Shown in pieces: positions 22,584 through 50,254 of a stretch of DNA of 64,000 nt; the stretch's first letter is position 1; every line of letters begins with the position of its first letter. The stretch comes from Actinomyces graevenitzii C83 (GTDB lineage: Bacteria; Actinomycetota; Actinomycetes; Actinomycetales; Actinomycetaceae): NCBI RefSeq assembly GCF_000239695.1, contig NZ_JH470338.1, positions 248,001 to 312,000 on the forward strand, in the 5' to 3' direction. Both the position numbers and the translations under genes were made by a program. A model generated the notes under the pieces. The model saw only the letters and a program-made list of their open reading frames with translations. It ran no database searches and was not told the DNA's origin.

Positions 22584-23192
22584 TTAGAAATATTGCCGAC
22601 TAAGGTGCAGACGGCTATCAACCACTGCCAACACTGTAAGCAGCGCTGCCAGGGGAGCCTGGAAGGGGGCAGTGTCTAAATTAAAAACAAAATTAAACTC
22701 CCAAGGTACAAGCCCAGCCAGGGACATTATCATCACTACCGCAATAGGAGCTAAGGCAGCTACATAGCGGTTAGTCCAACTAGCGCTTAATGCAGTTAAA
22801 GCGCAAAGAATTAGCAGCAGCCAAGTGCGAAACCAAGTATCTATATTGGCTGGTAAGAGCAGATTCGTTAAACCTATTAAGGCAAGATTTAACGCTAAAA
22901 ACACGCTGGTGCGTAGCAGCTGTAAACGCAGTACACCACTCTTGCTAGTAAATTCAGCCCAGGGGACGCTTGGGGAAAGCATCATGGTGCTGGCACTAAT
23001 CGCGACGGCGCCCGCTAGCGTGCCCAACTGCTCTTGGGAGGCAATGGAGGCAGTGGTGTCGGGGTGGACCCGAATTTGCACTTCACTGAGCACAGCTGAA
23101 GTTAGCCAAGCAGTAAGGCTAACTAAAATGCCGATAACTGTACTACGATGGCAGCTATTTTTTAATATCGTCAAGTGTGGCTTCACAGGCAA
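22584..23192 (-). CDS. Small integral membrane protein of the ABC cassette
   Basis: This protein of up to 202 residues has five or six hydrophobic segments and no motif I recognise. It overlaps the 3' end of the permease gene by up to 38 nt, so the two are translationally linked; the start is uncertain among TTG 23192, GTG 23186 and TTG 23174. It is probably an accessory membrane subunit of the ABC transporter upstream. Codon use is A/T-richer than in pnp or the M16 peptidase, as in the whole cassette. Confidence 0.65.
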   Translation of the reverse strand: MPVKPHLTILKNSCHRSTVIGILVSLTAWLTSAVLSEVQIRVHPDTTASIASQEQLGTLAGAVAISASTMMLSPSVPWAEFTSKSGVLRLQLLRTSVFLALNLALIGLTNLLLPANIDTWFRTWLLLILCALTALSASWTNRYVAALAPIAVVMIMSLAGLVPWEFNFVFNLDTAPFQAPLAALLTVLAVVDSRLHLSRQYF

Positions 23193-24462
23193 GAATCTTC
23201 TGGGCTTTACGGTTCAAAGTGTTCTCAAGGGAAGCATAAGGCACAGAGCTGAGATACTTTTCAGCCCCTAACGCCTCGCTAGTGGCAGAGGGGCGTAGCT
23301 GGGCATAGTCAGGCAAACTAGTTTCGCTCACGCCACTACGCTTTAACCACCACAGTGACAATCCTAAATTTAGGTCTTTACCTGCCGACTTATCTGTACA
23401 GTTAGCCAGCAGATAGTTGCTGGCAAGCTTGGCAGCTAGAGCATCTCTATCAACTAAAGCCGTATCCATATACTCACCAAAGCCACTTGGTGCATAGATA
23501 GCTTTTTGAGGTGCACTAGCTAAAGTAGCTTCAAGGTCAGTTACTGCGCCAACTAGGGTTTTGGGGCGTAAATTAGCAGGCAGCGTACTAATTAACGAAG
23601 AGCCATGAGTTAGGTAAGCGTCTAGACCCTGTGCCCCATAGGCGGGGCTACATACCGTAAGTGTGGCGTTAGATTTACAAACTGCACTATCGGCGCCGCT
23701 AATAGCTGTGCTGTTTATACCGTAGCTACCGGTTAGGACAGTGATAACTACCAGCAGTGCTAACGCACACCTGCGTAGTAGCCCGCTTGCTTGGAAAACA
23801 AAGGCCAGCAGTGTACAGGTGACAGCCGCCCAAAAAAGCAAACGCAGCGTAAGAGTAGCCGTGCTAGTGCGCAGGTACAGCCAAGGCAAGCTATCCCAAA
23901 AAGTGAAGGCCAAGCCGAGAGACTGCACCCCATCATAGGCTGAAGTAAGCGCAATCAGCGTATAGGGCAGGCAAGGGGCTATACAGATCGCGGGCACAGC
24001 CCCCAAATATCGGGCTAAAGCAAGGCCTAAAGCGGTCATCGCTGCGTAACTTACCAACACATTTAGCAGTGCCATAAGGCAAGGAAGCAATAAGTTTTGG
24101 GTATGCACAGAGGTCAGCCAGACATAAATCTGGACTGGAATGAAAATTAGCCAGGTAACGCCAGTGAAGGTTAAGGTTATGGCTGCAAAAAGCTCACGTG
24201 CAGGGGCATAGGGCTGGTGGGGGCTTAACCTGATCAAGTCTGGTAGAGGCTGATTTTTGAGGTAGCCACCAGCCCAAGCTGCAAAGGTGGCAGCAAAACA
24301 CATGGGCAGCAAAGTGGTGCCAAGCAAAACGCCGGTTACGGCCGGATACCAGCCAAGCCACTGAGCACGCGGTTTAAATAATTCCCAGACAAAGTAACTA
24401 GATAGCACTGCGCAAACTAAGACAAAAGCTATCCGCTGGCGAGGCAGCAATACTTTAAACAT
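23155..24462 (-). CDS. ABC-2-like permease with extracellular Cys-containing domain
   Basis: The 435-residue protein has about six membrane helices in the first 250 residues and then a largely extracytoplasmic C-terminal domain that starts VCKSNATLTVCSPAYGAQGL. The form VCxxPAYxxxLxxYL resembles a motif I remember from actinobacterial ABC-2 permeases linked to peptide or lantibiotic export, so export of or resistance to a small molecule or peptide is a fair guess. Its stop lies inside the start region of the next membrane gene, and its start is one base from the ATPase stop. It is poorly conserved, and its A/T-rich codons suggest transfer. Confidence 0.65.
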   Translation of the reverse strand: MFKVLLPRQRIAFVLVCAVLSSYFVWELFKPRAQWLGWYPAVTGVLLGTTLLPMCFAATFAAWAGGYLKNQPLPDLIRLSPHQPYAPARELFAAITLTFTGVTWLIFIPVQIYVWLTSVHTQNLLLPCLMALLNVLVSYAAMTALGLALARYLGAVPAICIAPCLPYTLIALTSAYDGVQSLGLAFTFWDSLPWLYLRTSTATLTLRLLFWAAVTCTLLAFVFQASGLLRRCALALLVVITVLTGSYGINSTAISGADSAVCKSNATLTVCSPAYGAQGLDAYLTHGSSLISTLPANLRPKTLVGAVTDLEATLASAPQKAIYAPSGFGEYMDTALVDRDALAAKLASNYLLANCTDKSAGKDLNLGLSLWWLKRSGVSETSLPDYAQLRPSATSEALGAEKYLSSVPYASLENTLNRKAQKILACEATLDDIKK

Positions 24463-24463
24463 A

Positions 24464-25237
24464 TTACATACCGATCTTGGAGCGAAGGAGCTCTAAAGTT
24501 AATGCGTCTTGCTCGCGTAAAGCATCTATTGAAAAAGCAGATTTGATGGTTTTGTCTGCTATAGTCACGCAGCTATTAGCGGCTAAGAAAACATCTTCAA
24601 GGATGTGGGTCGATAGGATAATAATGCACTTGCTGCTAAGTGGCGTTAAAGCATTTAGGAAAGCTTGACGCTGCGTAGGGTCAAGTCCCACAGACGGTTC
24701 GTCTAGTAGCAACACTTTAGGGTTACCAAGCATAGCTCCGGCCAGAGTGACACGCCTGCGAGTGCCGCCTGAAAGCTGGCGCATAGGGCAAGCTAAAACT
24801 TGCTCAACTTCTAGCTGCTGGGTCAGGTTAGTTATAGCGGTTTCGGCTTCGCGGCTAGGAATTTGTTTAAGCCAACAAAGGTAACGCAAGTAATCTATTG
24901 CTACTATATTTTTAGCTAGGCTGGCCTGTTGGGGGAGCCAGCCTAAAAGTTTGCGATATTCAGCTAGCTTACTGGCTGAGGTGTGAATAGAGTGACCGCA
25001 GTAATTTATCTGCCCAGATTTGGGTTTAAGCAAACTAGCTAGTAGCCGCAAGAGAGTGGTTTTACCCGAACCATTGTCGCCTACTAGTGCGGTTATACCG
25101 TTTTCAAATGTGTGGCAGCAATTATTTAAAATCTGCTCACCGCTACGGTAGTGAAAACCAATCTCTTGCAACTCTAGCGTCATTATTTGCCTGTTCTCAG
25201 TAACTTGAGCTAAAGGAACGCATGTAATCTGCTTCAT
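24464..25237 (-). CDS. ABC transporter ATP-binding protein
   Basis: The 257-residue subunit has Walker A GDNGSGKT (53-60), Q-loop near LPQQ, signature LSGGT (155-159), Walker B LLLDEP (176-181) and a following H-loop (STHILED), so it should be an active ATPase. It should energise the permease encoded just downstream. ATG 25237 would be leaderless (TAACCT 5 nt upstream); an alternative ATG at 25183 gives the more usual N-terminus MTLELQEIGFHYRSG. The gene is divergent from the M16 peptidase with a 457-bp gap. Confidence 0.85.
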   Translation of the reverse strand: MKQITCVPLAQVTENRQIMTLELQEIGFHYRSGEQILNNCCHTFENGITALVGDNGSGKTTLLRLLASLLKPKSGQINYCGHSIHTSASKLAEYRKLLGWLPQQASLAKNIVAIDYLRYLCWLKQIPSREAETAITNLTQQLEVEQVLACPMRQLSGGTRRRVTLAGAMLGNPKVLLLDEPSVGLDPTQRQAFLNALTPLSSKCIIILSTHILEDVFLAANSCVTIADKTIKSAFSIDALREQDALTLELLRSKIGM

Positions 25238-33376: not shown

Positions 33377-33477
33377 AACTAGCCAGGAGGCCACTAGCCT
33401 CCCAGCCACTGTCTAAACGCGGCCAGCACCACAAACCCAACCCCCGTCCCAAATCCAGGAAATGCCCCAGGCACGGC

Positions 33478-33483
33478 TAACAT
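33478..33483 (+). promoter_or_regulatory. Possible leaderless -10 box (TAACAT) of the MFS gene
   Basis: TAACAT ends 8 nt before the GTG at 33492, slightly long for a leaderless start. No Shine-Dalgarno sequence is visible before the GTG. Confidence 0.35.
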
Positions 33484-33491
33484 CTAATACC

Positions 33492-34763
33492 GTGAAAAAA
33501 TCAGCCCCCGCCCAACAGGCCACAAACCAAAAAGACGGGCTAAAAGCCTGGATCGTATTTTTAGGCGGAGGCCTGGCCTACTGCATGGCCATGTGCGCAC
33601 GCACCTCCTTCGGCGTGGCCGTACCCTGGGCAGACCACCGCTTCGGCCTATCCTCAGCCCAACTAGCCGTATTCATCATGGGCCAGCTAGCCGTCTACGC
33701 CGCCGCCCAAATCCCCGTAGGCCTCCTACTAGACCGCTACGGCTCACGCAAAGTACTCACCTGCGGCCTAATCATCGTAGGTCTAGGCCAACTAGCCCTC
33801 GCCCAAGCCCACACATTCCCCACCGCGCTCGCGGCTAGGGCTCTGGTGGGGGCCGGCGACGCCACCGCTTTTATTGGTGTGGTGCGGTTTTTGCCGGCCT
33901 GGTTTAGTGCTTCCCGGGTGCCGCTACTAACCCAGATAACTAACGTGGGTGGCCAGATTGGGCAGGTAATCAGCGCTTTCCCAGTGGTGTGGTGGCTGCA
34001 TGATTACGGCTGGTCTACCAGCTTTAACCTGGTGGCTTTGGCGGTGTTTATAGCGGCCGTGGCTACGGCGGTGCTGGTGCGCGATGATCCTTCAGGCACT
34101 AAGGCACCGGTGGCGCAAACTGAATCAGTTAGGCGCTCTATGGGGGCGGTGCTGCGTAACCGCGCCACCTGGGTGGGGTGGATGATTCACGCTACGGCAG
34201 CTTTTCCTTTTAACGTGATTGCCCTGATGTGGGGTTCAGCCTGGATGCGTCAGGGAATGCATTTAAGCGACACGGTTAGCGCCACCATGCTCAGCCTAGA
34301 GGGCTTATTTTTGGTGGCCGCCGGGATTCCGGCTGGAATTATTTCTGGGCGCTGGCCTAGGCGCCGGCTGCAAACCTGCCTGGCTGCCTATGCGATAAGT
34401 GTCTTGACCTGGGTGGTGGGGCTGGCTTTGTCGCCTTCAGCGGCGGCAGCGTTAATTGTGATTATTGGGGCTGCTATTGGTTCATGTGTGGGCGCTTTGG
34501 GTTTTGATATTGTGCGTGAATATACCCAGCGTTCACGTTGGGGCGTGGCTATTGGTACGGTTAATACCGGTGGTTTTGTTTCCTCAATTATTGCTGTTGA
34601 GCTGGTGGGATTAATTCTTGACCTGCGTGGGGGAGCGCGCACTGGTAGCGATTTTATCGTTGCTTTTGGCGCTATGGGCGTTATCATTGCACTACTGGTA
34701 GTAGGTTTGCTGATTGTTTCACGCCGTCTGCATCCCCAGGTAGTTATTCCTCAAGAAAGCTGA
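33492..34763 (+). CDS. MFS transporter
   Basis: The 423-residue protein has about 12 membrane helices and a major facilitator signature in the loop after helix 2 (LLDRYGSRKVL). RALVGAGDATAFIGVVRFLPAWF matches helix 4-5 of the NarK/sugar-phosphate-like branch of MFS. The substrate is not identifiable. I place the start at GTG 33492; the ATG at 33462 adds ten residues before the basic N-terminus. Around 33840 the strand composition switches sharply from C/A-rich to G/T-rich although the protein reads through normally. A possible lipoprotein gene follows within 10 nt. Confidence 0.85.
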   Translation: MKKSAPAQQATNQKDGLKAWIVFLGGGLAYCMAMCARTSFGVAVPWADHRFGLSSAQLAVFIMGQLAVYAAAQIPVGLLLDRYGSRKVLTCGLIIVGLGQLALAQAHTFPTALAARALVGAGDATAFIGVVRFLPAWFSASRVPLLTQITNVGGQIGQVISAFPVVWWLHDYGWSTSFNLVALAVFIAAVATAVLVRDDPSGTKAPVAQTESVRRSMGAVLRNRATWVGWMIHATAAFPFNVIALMWGSAWMRQGMHLSDTVSATMLSLEGLFLVAAGIPAGIISGRWPRRRLQTCLAAYAISVLTWVVGLALSPSAAAALIVIIGAAIGSCVGALGFDIVREYTQRSRWGVAIGTVNTGGFVSSIIAVELVGLILDLRGGARTGSDFIVAFGAMGVIIALLVVGLLIVSRRLHPQVVIPQES

Positions 34764-34770
34764 AATGCTC

Positions 34771-35312
34771 ATGAGTAAGCTGCTTAAAAAAAACCGGTAC
34801 TTAGCGTTGTAGCTAGTGCTTTGGGTTTAGTGTTGCTGTGTGCCTGCGCTGGCACAAAAACTGTAACGCCCTCTGGTGCGGTTAGCGCTAGTGTTACGGC
34901 TAGCGCAGCGGCCGCCGCAAGCTCCACTGCCACTACGCTGCCGTCTGCCGATCTGCGCCGCGACTACACTAAGGCCGAGGAGGCTGCAGTTTTTAACTGG
35001 TGTGTAAAACATGCCAGTGAGGCAAAAACGTTTACCCTCAGCCAGGTGCCCAAGTTAAACAACCAACCCTTTTGGGTTTGCTTCATTCTCAAAGACGGCA
35101 CTGGGACTGTAGAAGCGCAACTGCCCAGCACCAGGGAAGTAAACACTTACGCCACTGATGGGGTAATCCCATTAGGATGCAGCAAACAAACTGCTACTGA
35201 TCAGGGGAGAAAGGTCTTTCTCATCTCGAACGGCCAAATTTGGCAGGGCCGCGCCGATCTAGTGTGCAGCCCGGATATGGCCGCTTATCCCACCCCGGTA
35301 AGCACCTGGTAG
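34771..35312 (+). CDS. Putative lipoprotein split by an A8 frameshift
   Basis: From the ATG at 34771 (or 34765) the frame reads MSKLLKKNRYLAL and stops at 34810-34812. If one extra A is read in the A8 run (34786-34793), or the ribosome slips back one base at A-AAA-AAC, it becomes MSKLLKKKPVLSVVASALGL and runs on into LLCACAG, a complete lipoprotein signal, then about 155 residues of mature protein with Cys pairs. The downstream frame is open to 35312. The mature part (ACAGTKTVTPSG, Ala/Ser-rich, then WCVKHASEAKTF) is not a family I know. It may be phase-variable, programmed, broken, or a base-calling error; an internal TTG at 34821 could also give a truncated protein. Confidence 0.55.
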
Positions 35313-35392: not shown

Positions 35393-36217
35393 CTAGTTGT
35401 AGCGCGAGAGGGCGCCGTCACTGTGGCGGTAAAGCTGGGCTGGTAGCGGCAATTTACGTACCGCACGGGAAAGACAGTCAAAATCTTCAGCGCTAAAACC
35501 AGTTTTGCGCGCCACCAACACCAAATTGCCACGACGCTTGCCACGCGCCACGGCGGCGTCGCTAATAACCAAAAAATCACTTATCTGGGCTAAAGCCGCA
35601 AACTGCGCCTGCACTTGGCTAGTTGGGGCGGAGGCAGCATTAATTAAAAACAGCCCCTCGCTCTTAAGTGCATTCATGCACGAGTGCATAAATTCCGGTG
35701 TGCAGACACTGTCAGGTACCGTGCCGGCGCTAAAAATATCGCGCACAACCACATCCCAAAACTCAGCTTTTAAGCTGGGAGCAGCCACTACGGCGTCGTC
35801 AATGCGAATACGCAGACGCGGCGAACGTGGCAAATCAAACCACTGACGCACATAAGCGGCTAATTTAGCGTCAATTTCTACCGCCAACTGCGCAGAACCC
35901 GGGTGGGTTGCGTCCCAAGCGCGCGCTAAAGCACAAGCCGCCCCACCTAAATGCGCTGCATTTAAAGGTAGATCTTCACCTAGCAATACTTTTACAGCCG
36001 CATCCATATGCTGGTGATATTCAAAATCCAAATACGCTGGATCAGCCAAATCAATAAATGATGACTCAGTTTCATCCAAATACAGCAAAATACCCTGATC
36101 GCGAGCCTCTAAGCGGGCGCTGGCAAAAGAAGTAGCTACCGGCTCGGTAGGCAAACTAGACAGTGACAAGCTATCGCCAGTTTTGGCGGCAGGCTTAGAT
36201 CGGCGGCGTTTACTCAC
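35393..36217 (-). CDS. Spermidine-synthase-like protein
   Basis: The 274-residue protein has a Rossmann methyltransferase-type fold with HLGGAACALARAW, the equivalent of the HLGGG motif, and an acidic VEIDAKLAAYVRQW strand. Such proteins are common in actinobacteria and are often annotated as spermidine synthase, but many lack the residues for polyamine binding, so the reaction is uncertain. I choose the GTG at 36217, which has TAACTT exactly 6 nt upstream on the minus strand; a GTG at 36223 would lie within the spacer. It is divergent from dinB. Confidence 0.75.
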   Translation of the reverse strand: MSKRRRSKPAAKTGDSLSLSSLPTEPVATSFASARLEARDQGILLYLDETESSFIDLADPAYLDFEYHQHMDAAVKVLLGEDLPLNAAHLGGAACALARAWDATHPGSAQLAVEIDAKLAAYVRQWFDLPRSPRLRIRIDDAVVAAPSLKAEFWDVVVRDIFSAGTVPDSVCTPEFMHSCMNALKSEGLFLINAASAPTSQVQAQFAALAQISDFLVISDAAVARGKRRGNLVLVARKTGFSAEDFDCLSRAVRKLPLPAQLYRHSDGALSRYN

Positions 36218-36223
36218 CCACAC

Positions 36224-47868: not shown

Positions 47869-49137
47869 GTGAAGCGAGCTTATTTCTGGGTGCGCGGGCG
47901 CTATCGAGGCGTTAAAAGCTGGCTAGACCAGTTTGATGCGCTTAGCTACTATCTGCTAATCATCTGCGCCACCACCTTGGTGCTAATTGGCCTGTATATG
48001 GATATTTCTATCCAGCAGGTGCAGATCGCCAGCGACTCAGAAGGCTCCGCCTCACTTACCCAACTGTATGAACCCTACTTACGCACCACCTTGATCTATC
48101 TGGTGGGTATCGCGGCAGCTTGGGGAGTTTCCCGCCTAAAACCAGCCATTATTATCCGCTACGGTTGGCTGATGCTGGTGCCGGCAGCGATTTTACAGAC
48201 GCTGATTTTCACCAGTCTGGGGGTAACCATCGGTGGTAACGCCGGTTGGGTGCAGCTGCCCGGAATTGGTCCAGTGCAGCCTGCTGAGCTGTCAAAACTG
48301 GCTTTGATTTTGGCGCTAGCCGCAGTGCTAGACCGCTACACGGGGGCGATTACCTCCCGCGTGGCCCTGGCACTTATGGGCTTTATAGTTGCGGCCACAG
48401 CCGGTCTAGTGGTGCTTGGTAAAGACCTAGGCTCAGCCCTGGTGATGGTGGTGATTGTGGCCGCGATGCTAGTGATGGCTAAATTCCCGGCTAAATACAT
48501 GGCCATAACCGGTACCCTGGGAGCAGTGGGCATCAGCATCCTTACCTATATGAGTGCCAACCGTCGCGCCCGCATCTCCGCCTGGTGGAATATGCCTTCT
48601 TTGGCCGATGACGAATCGGGCCTGACCTACCAGCCTCACCACGCTGAATACGCCTTCGCCCACGGGGGAGTGCTAGGCGTGGGCAGTGATGGTTCACGTG
48701 AAAAATGGGGTTACCTAACCCAGTCCGAATCCGATTATGTATATGCGGTTTTAGGCGAAGAACACGGCCTGGTGGGTACTTTGGCGGTGCTAGTCATTTT
48801 CCTACTGATCGGCTACTGCTGTATGCGCGTGATGCGCGCCCATGTGCGTAACCGCTACATTCTGTTTTCCACCACTGGGATCTGCACCTGGCTGGTGGGT
48901 CAAGCCCTGATTAACATCATGGTGGCTACCGGTTTGCTACCGGTTCTGGGGGTGCCATTACCGCTAATTTCTAAAGGTGGCTCATCAACTGTGGCCATCA
49001 TGCTGGCGGTAGGGGTACTTACCTGTTTTGCTCGAAACGAGCCCAGCGCTATCGCTGTACTGCGTTCACAATCTCAAGCTAACCGCCGCACGGTGCTTGA
49101 GGCCCTTAGTAAATGGAGGATATGGCATCGTGGCTAA
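47869..49137 (+). CDS. ftsW: Septal peptidoglycan polymerase FtsW (SEDS family)
   Basis: FtsW polymerises lipid II at the septum together with FtsI. The 422-residue protein has about ten helices, a large extracellular loop with the catalytic-type Asp (around ASLADDESGLTYQPHHAEYAF), and LGVPLPLISKGGSS near the C-terminus, the SEDS signature. GTG at 47869 follows murD directly. It overlaps murG by 8 bp. Confidence 0.95.
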   Translation: MKRAYFWVRGRYRGVKSWLDQFDALSYYLLIICATTLVLIGLYMDISIQQVQIASDSEGSASLTQLYEPYLRTTLIYLVGIAAAWGVSRLKPAIIIRYGWLMLVPAAILQTLIFTSLGVTIGGNAGWVQLPGIGPVQPAELSKLALILALAAVLDRYTGAITSRVALALMGFIVAATAGLVVLGKDLGSALVMVVIVAAMLVMAKFPAKYMAITGTLGAVGISILTYMSANRRARISAWWNMPSLADDESGLTYQPHHAEYAFAHGGVLGVGSDGSREKWGYLTQSESDYVYAVLGEEHGLVGTLAVLVIFLLIGYCCMRVMRAHVRNRYILFSTTGICTWLVGQALINIMVATGLLPVLGVPLPLISKGGSSTVAIMLAVGVLTCFARNEPSAIAVLRSQSQANRRTVLEALSKWRIWHRG

Positions 49138-50254
49138 AAAAATTAATGCCCTGCTAGCCGGTGGAGGTACCGCTGGTCACGTCAACCCGCTGCTGGCTAC
49201 CGCCGCGCAGCTGCGTGAACGTGGCGCCCAGGTGCTGGTGCTAGGCACCCATGAAGGTCTTGAAGACCGACTAGTGCCTGCCGCCGGTTTTGAGCTGCGC
49301 TACATCCCCAAGGTACCCCTGCCGCGTAAGCCCTCCACTGATTTCCTGCGTCTGCCGGGCCGTCTGCATGAGGCTATCGACGGCGCCAAGGCGGCCATTG
49401 AAGAAAACGAGTCCGACGTCGTCGTAGGCTACGGCGGCTACGTATCCCTGCCGGCATACTGGGCCGCTAAGTCCATGGGCGTGCCGGTAGTTATCCAGGA
49501 GCAAAACGCCCGCCCCGGCATTGCCAATAAGCTGGGCGCTAAGCAGGCCGTGGCGCTGGGACTAAGCTTCCCCGACACACCCTTGCAGGCCCGCCACGGC
49601 GTCACCGAGGTTACCGGTATGCCGCTGCGTGCAGCTATCACCACCTTGGCCCGCAGTCGCCAAGATCCGATCCAGCGCGCCCAGCTACGCCAGCAGGGCG
49701 CCAAAGAACTGGGCCTGGACCCCCAGCTGCCCACCGTGCTGGTCACCGGCGGTTCGCTAGGGGCCTTGAGCCTTAACCGCGCCGTCGCCCAGGCCTACCG
49801 CGACTACCAGGGCCAAGTGCAGGTGCTGCACCTAACCGGTAAAGGCAAGAACGAGCAGGTGCTGCAGCTGCTAGAGGGCGCCGACACCACCCACTACCAC
49901 GTGCTCGAATACCTTGACGGCATGGAATACGCTTACGCCGCAGCCGATGCGGTGATTTGCCGTTCCGGCGCGGGCACAGTCAGTGAGCTAACCGCTGTGG
50001 GCCTGCCGGCGCTGTATGTGCCCCTACCTATTGGCAACGGTGAGCAGCGCCTAAACGCCGCCGCTGTGGTTGCTGCCGGCGGTGGCAAGCTGGTGGCTGA
50101 TGACAGGCTAAACGCCAGCCACATCGCTGACCTATTTAACCTAACCAATAACACTCGCCGCCTGGAAGTAGCTTCACATGCGGCCGCCAGCTGCGGTAAC
50201 CCCGACGGCACCGCAAAATTCGTGGACCTGATCGAGTCGGTAGTAGGAGAGTAA
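49130..50254 (+). CDS. murG: Lipid II synthase MurG
   Basis: MurG adds GlcNAc to lipid I on the inner membrane face. The 374-residue protein has GGGTAGHVNPLLA, VVGYGGYVSLPAYWAA, the GGSLGALSLN loop and CRSGAGTVSELTAVGLP near the UDP site. The GTG at 49130 lies after GGAGG and overlaps the ftsW stop. An upstream frame to 49028 is inside ftsW. Confidence 0.96.
   Translation: MAKKINALLAGGGTAGHVNPLLATAAQLRERGAQVLVLGTHEGLEDRLVPAAGFELRYIPKVPLPRKPSTDFLRLPGRLHEAIDGAKAAIEENESDVVVGYGGYVSLPAYWAAKSMGVPVVIQEQNARPGIANKLGAKQAVALGLSFPDTPLQARHGVTEVTGMPLRAAITTLARSRQDPIQRAQLRQQGAKELGLDPQLPTVLVTGGSLGALSLNRAVAQAYRDYQGQVQVLHLTGKGKNEQVLQLLEGADTTHYHVLEYLDGMEYAYAAADAVICRSGAGTVSELTAVGLPALYVPLPIGNGEQRLNAAAVVAAGGGKLVADDRLNASHIADLFNLTNNTRRLEVASHAAASCGNPDGTAKFVDLIESVVGE

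Follow-up and report, generated by a model that had tools for sequence, protein, structure and literature searches.

A 5' poly(A) run in an Actinomyces graevenitzii lipoprotein gene: a candidate homopolymer contingency locus in its OFF state

In mycoplasma lipoproteins that are switched by poly(A) tracts, as in the lic genes of Haemophilus, the number of repeats sets expression, and in multi-start contingency loci such as lic, starts in more than one reading frame keep some phases ON. The lipoprotein gene that we describe here resembles these systems in that repeat number would set its expression, a mechanism that we propose rather than observe. For inlA of Listeria monocytogenes, a 5' poly(A) tract is described and reversible inactivation proposed (PMC2831843). 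Our locus shares with inlA this placement of the tract and a frameshift that leaves a short peptide (8 residues in inlA, 13-15 here), whereas it belongs to another phylum and encodes an unrelated protein, and the frequency of variation was measured for inlA only (PMC2831843).

The other close parallel comes from Mycobacterium tuberculosis, where paired indels are described that lose and then restore the reading frame (PMC8339072). Both cases concern an actinobacterium in which a first indel breaks the frame and a second, close to it, mends it (PMC8339072, PMC11898584), and the MSGYF, MSKLL and MATL N-termini discussed below resemble the frameshift scars of M. tuberculosis. The two differ in that the M. 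tuberculosis scars were shown on DNA from 5977 clinical genomes, whereas ours are deduced from the proteins of one species.

We propose, with a probability of roughly 60%, that a lipoprotein gene whose frame is naturally polymorphic, a homopolymer contingency locus, is present in the window (the whole 64-kb stretch of DNA analysed) as its OFF allele. The locus is probably an inherited on/off switch rather than a ribosomal trick; its kind is already known, and switching within a clone is what we infer here. Among the full texts searched, none joins A. graevenitzii with phase variation, and the listings for Actinomyces with phase variation plus slipped-strand mispairing or homopolymeric tract gave no report of this locus; papers that mention both the species and a lipoprotein deal, by their titles, with human disease and microbiota. 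If the gene switches in culture, it would be a phase-variable surface lipoprotein in an oral Actinomyces. If the proposal is true, the link between NucS-type repair and homopolymer switching would be carried over from mycobacteria to a commensal of humans, and ON/OFF ratios could be read without culture from the many metagenomic contigs.

The A8 run and the broken reading frame

The features of the locus are collected in Table 1. Direct reading bears out what the preliminary description reported: an A8 run, the heptamer A_AAA_AAC in the ATG frame, and, in another frame, a lipoprotein signal with a 155-residue mature protein. Its stop after 13 codons is the correct count from the second ATG (34771), and from the first ATG (34765) the start ORF MLMSKLLKKNRYLAL has 15 codons; the TAG at 34810 ends both. 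This ORF begins 1 nt past the stop of the major facilitator superfamily (MFS) gene. The frame that opens inside the A8 run stays open for 174 residues, and the TAA at 34785-34787 shuts it upstream of the run, so that the signal peptide is left without a start of its own and the first starts left are TTG and GTG codons behind the run.

Table 1. Coordinates of features at the lipoprotein locus (positions in the window)
Feature	Position	Strand	Basis or remark
MFS transporter gene, directly upstream	33462..34763	+	Pfam MFS_1
Out-of-phase start ORF MLMSKLLKKNRYLAL followed by stop, alternative in-frame ATG 34771	34765..34812	+	direct reading
A8 homopolymer, proposed switch, longest homopolymer of the window	34786..34793	+	direct reading
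Heptamer A_AAA_AAC in ATG frame, judged incidental	34788..34794	+	direct reading
Lipoprotein frame, signal-peptide h-region and lipobox	34788..35312	+	reading frame, relatives
First starts left in mature frame: TTG 34821, GTG 34830	34821..34832	+	25 late-starting rows begin here
Cys codon	34845-34847	+	
Mature lipoprotein, 155 residues	34845-35309	+	
Ala/Ser/Thr-rich linker	34848..34937 (limits approximate)	+	differs in length and sequence among relatives
Spermidine-synthase-like gene, next downstream, control for start calling	35393..36223	-	NCBIfam NF037959 above cut-off

The A8 run is the only homopolymer of at least eight, of any base, in the window. First-order Markov simulations of the window lead one to expect about 1.2 A/T runs and about 3.6 G/C runs of eight or more, so that the window is rather poor in long runs and a count of one A8 is unremarkable. 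What counts is the placement of the run, a few codons inside the start, where it breaks a gene that is intact in most relatives. A contingency locus of this kind is characterised by a homopolymer within the 5' coding region whose length sets the frame, and the A8 run lies at the frame break. The heptamer A_AAA_AAC occurs in frame in none of the 49 main ORFs of the window (19,582 codons), and a scan of the window for tRNAs and Rfam families came back empty.

Two observations concern other parts of the window. An A7 run at 49136-49142 lies a few bases after a GTG that looks like a gene start and would be another 5' poly(A) tract; the gene behind this GTG is presumably murG-like, judging by its N-terminus. 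Three adjacent minus-strand ORFs at 22584-25237 have a third-position GC of 0.43-0.48, against more than 0.5 in most other ORFs of the window, and were possibly acquired.

The lipoprotein and its neighbourhood

The lipoprotein frame encodes an h-region, PVLSVVASALGLVLL, and the lipobox LCAC. The pattern used for the lipobox, which we take to be PROSITE PS51257, matches with the Cys as residue 20; it is also present in 83 of the 112 database rows and in P0001. With the Cys invariant across 25 aligned rows, the protein has the marks of a bacterial lipoprotein, and lipid attachment is predicted. In the products of late starts the n-region is missing, along with most of the h-region, and two of these rows, P0025 and P0036, gave no lipobox match.

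The 112 rows come from a protein search and include the window's own protein, P0025. A profile built from 24 rows and P0001 returned the same 112 proteins among 7994 scored candidates, which were those sharing most words. Where the mature part is complete (99 rows), identity to the window is 83-99%, and one of these rows, P0074, is annotated as a hypothetical protein of A. graevenitzii. A wider family did not emerge from Pfam or NCBIfam, which gave no match for the lipoprotein, and PDB sequences gave six rows, all weak, with a best E of 0.43; the AlphaFold model has a mean pLDDT of 35 and is unusable. From the searches so far, the lipoprotein appears confined to A. graevenitzii and close relatives. 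In the linker of P0093, a stretch that looks out of frame, PPSPPAPTPPPPP, is followed by a return to frame, like a frameshift scar.

The 1-nt gap suggests that the MFS and lipoprotein genes are probably read as one transcript, and the lipoprotein is possibly a partner of the transporter. For the substrate of the latter, all 15 NCBIfam matches fall under their cut-offs. Synteny was examined at one locus of 80, L001 of Actinomyces gaoshouyii, where the matching place holds HelD-like, spermidine-synthase-like and DinB genes with their neighbours, among them what we take to be PAC2, MraZ and RsmH genes. The MFS and lipoprotein genes (33462-35312) are both absent there, which points to a two-gene insertion in this lineage or to loss elsewhere.

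At the DNA level the lipoprotein gene was found in none of the 213 genomes in the family of G001 (genus Actinomyces), and at the protein level 2 of the 213 gave weak matches, both of which were set aside: L081 spans query residues 8-46 only, that is, signal and linker, and L082 has two internal stops and overlies ORFs that are dehydrogenase-like by eye. Genome contigs searched for lipoprotein DNA of other strains yielded 260 stretches, none confirmed, and the same DNA was not found among viral contigs and plasmids.

Intact and late-starting relatives

For the comparison of N-termini we kept the 99 rows of 112 that have a complete mature part and left out 13 (P0101-P0113) with a mature part of less than 150 residues or without a lipobox motif. 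The signal peptide is intact in 74 of the 99 rows, and 25, including the window's P0025, are late-starting, opening with MGLVLL, MLL or VLL at the earliest TTG or GTG beyond the run. Among the 74 intact N-termini, 50 are MSGYFKK, 20 MSKLLKK-like (with NK in place of KK in P0044), 2 MSKLLKKK and 2 MATLKK. Those left out include intact-start forms that are cut short or carry internal deletions, a partial row without a start (P0102), a late start (P0104), a frame broken later, within the signal peptide (P0109), and a chimera (P0113). The gene thus seems variable in more than one way.

Both states occur with the same mature protein. One identical mature sequence is found in three rows, with KK (P0007), with KKK (P0008) and with a late start (P0077), and P0074, a KK form from 217 contigs, likewise has the same mature protein as P0096, a late-starting form from 13 contigs of which the longest has 344,917 bases. 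Judged from the protein starts, in-frame and broken alleles therefore share a background. The window itself has as its nearest intact relative P0002, which is of the other N-terminal type (MSGYF), so that it is left without a direct intact sister, a point against the proposal.

Late starts are more frequent here than in the spermidine-synthase-like control gene, a small control in which 1 of 31 rows is late (P0144; Fisher p 0.008, with control rows of at least 91% identity and with P0142, cut without Met, counted as not late). On a tree built from the mature parts, 20 changes are needed to account for the late-starting state. When the labels were shuffled the mean was 22.4 (sd 1.5), and 60 of 500 shuffles came out at 20 or below. 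The state thus has little to do with descent, and this scatter is weak evidence for repeated switching, given one starred branch on the tree and possible recombination. Over 101 conserved domain columns, rare residues number 0.48 per late-starting row and 0.39 per intact row (p 0.70), so that the late-starting rows do not look like old pseudogenes, and that explanation was rejected.

The N-termini also bear on what changed. The rare form MATLKKP (P0003, P0072) corresponds to MSGYFKKP in a frame shifted by one base: it arises if the run gains one base and translation starts at a GTG that overlaps the second codon. Exactly one synonymous coding of MSGYFKKP permits MATLKKP, and 4 of 2000 random peptides allow such a relation, so that one-base changes before the proline codon seem to occur in nature. 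The KK and KKK forms that share one mature protein point the same way, and the KK, KKK and MATL/MSGYF forms, all known from protein data for other strains, agree with differences in tract length. The run lengths of the relatives are deduced from lysine counts and start positions, and other mutations could yield the same late starts. Against the proposal stand the two lysines of most intact forms: with AAA for both, the run would have about six As, few for a hypermutable tract.

Mechanism, rival explanations and allele types

Replication slippage at the run without repair is the simplest mechanism. The lysines of the signal peptide are encoded within an A run a few codons after the start, and slipped-strand mispairing in replication would bring the run to an out-of-phase length, upon which the ribosome would stop after 13-15 codons and the lipoprotein would not be exported. 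A further change of length, or a second small indel close by, would restore export. We expect that the NucS-type mismatch repair of the lineage leaves such indels unremoved: among the sampled Actinomyces genomes, which do not include A. graevenitzii itself, all 41 matched NucS and none matched MutS_I, while of the 14 control genomes 7 gave a NucS match and 11 a MutS_I match. NucS of M. smegmatis reportedly leaves indels of 1-2 bases unrepaired (PMC11551767), and a link between this gap and mycobacterial phase variation has been drawn (PMC11551767, PMC8228993). For the locus to act as a switch, late-starting relatives would have to differ in run length, the change would be reversible and frequent in growing cells, and loss of export would matter to the cell. 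Of the earlier suggestions for the A8 run, that of phase variation (or of repeated frameshifting) is supported insofar as the frame break recurs at this point and identical mature proteins are found in both states; it holds less firmly for the run lengths of the relatives, which are the deduced ones.

An error of sequencing or assembly, by which the true run length would differ from that in this record, would most readily fall in the A8 run, since the longest homopolymer of the window is the likeliest place for an indel error. We nevertheless consider it quite unlikely. The ORF map, a map-level view of the genes, has no other evident frame break, a 1195-aa ORF stays open through an A7 run, and late-starting forms come from other assemblies too (9 contigs for P0087, besides those of P0096), which an error in one record would not explain. 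Even less probable, and in our view very much so, is that the run and heptamer are kept so that some ribosomes, by a -1 slip, or some transcripts, by slippage of RNA polymerase, make the lipoprotein. The heptamer does sit in the right frame, but an uninterrupted frame in 74 of the 99 rows means that no slip is needed in those rows; programmed -1 frameshifting was rejected on this count, and the proposed production of the lipoprotein by a -1 slip at the heptamer is not supported. The description of A_AAA_AAC as a known efficient site is apt for mammalian ribosomes, for which it is among the best, whereas in Escherichia coli it is a poor one, much less shift-prone than A_AAA_AAG (PMC5009743). 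For the 80 nt behind the heptamer the predicted fold is slightly better than that of shuffled sequences (z -1.78; 9 of the 200 did as well), a difference that seems too little to argue for a stimulator. As for transcription, work on slippage has dealt mostly with runs of nine; A/T runs about that long slip in many bacteria and shorter ones perhaps in some (PMC1088944), and low-level leakage through slippage is possible.

A more serious rival, though one that we still regard as unlikely, is recurrent plain loss of function: the gene would be dispensable, unrepaired indels at the run would often shift the frame, and the broken alleles would be transient, neutral or mildly harmful, without switching. 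It would accommodate late-starting forms that make up 25 of 99 rows yet only 70 of 695 contigs, a minority that counts against a switch, as well as the further shortened or deleted forms among P0101-P0113, the lack of a wider family in our searches, and the absence of both genes at this place in A. gaoshouyii, the one other species examined. It sits less well with late-starting rows that are free of decay, and a return to frame is suggested both by the KKK form, whose mature protein also occurs with KK and with a late start, and by the relation of MSGYF to MATL. We therefore prefer the contingency locus.

Within the contingency-locus reading, the two main N-terminal types may differ in how they tolerate a change of the run. 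The MSGYF allele would have a second start, a GTG in the next frame, so that one additional base would still give an exported lipoprotein, MATLKKP, whereas in the MSKLL allele, as represented in the window, the other frames offer no start before the run. We suggest, tentatively and with more doubt than confidence, that contingency alleles differ in the number of run lengths that count as ON, and that selection would act not only on the state of the switch but also on how much change it tolerates. When rows of equal length only were compared, the nearest intact row was of the MSKLL type for 20 of the 25 late-starting rows, while 22 of the 74 intact rows are of this type; the p of 1.5e-5 overstates the contrast, since the same neighbour serves several rows. 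This excess would fit the easier loss of an allele without a spare start, and we take it as a lead only. The window is an exception to it, being MSKLL by its DNA with a nearest intact row of the MSGYF type.
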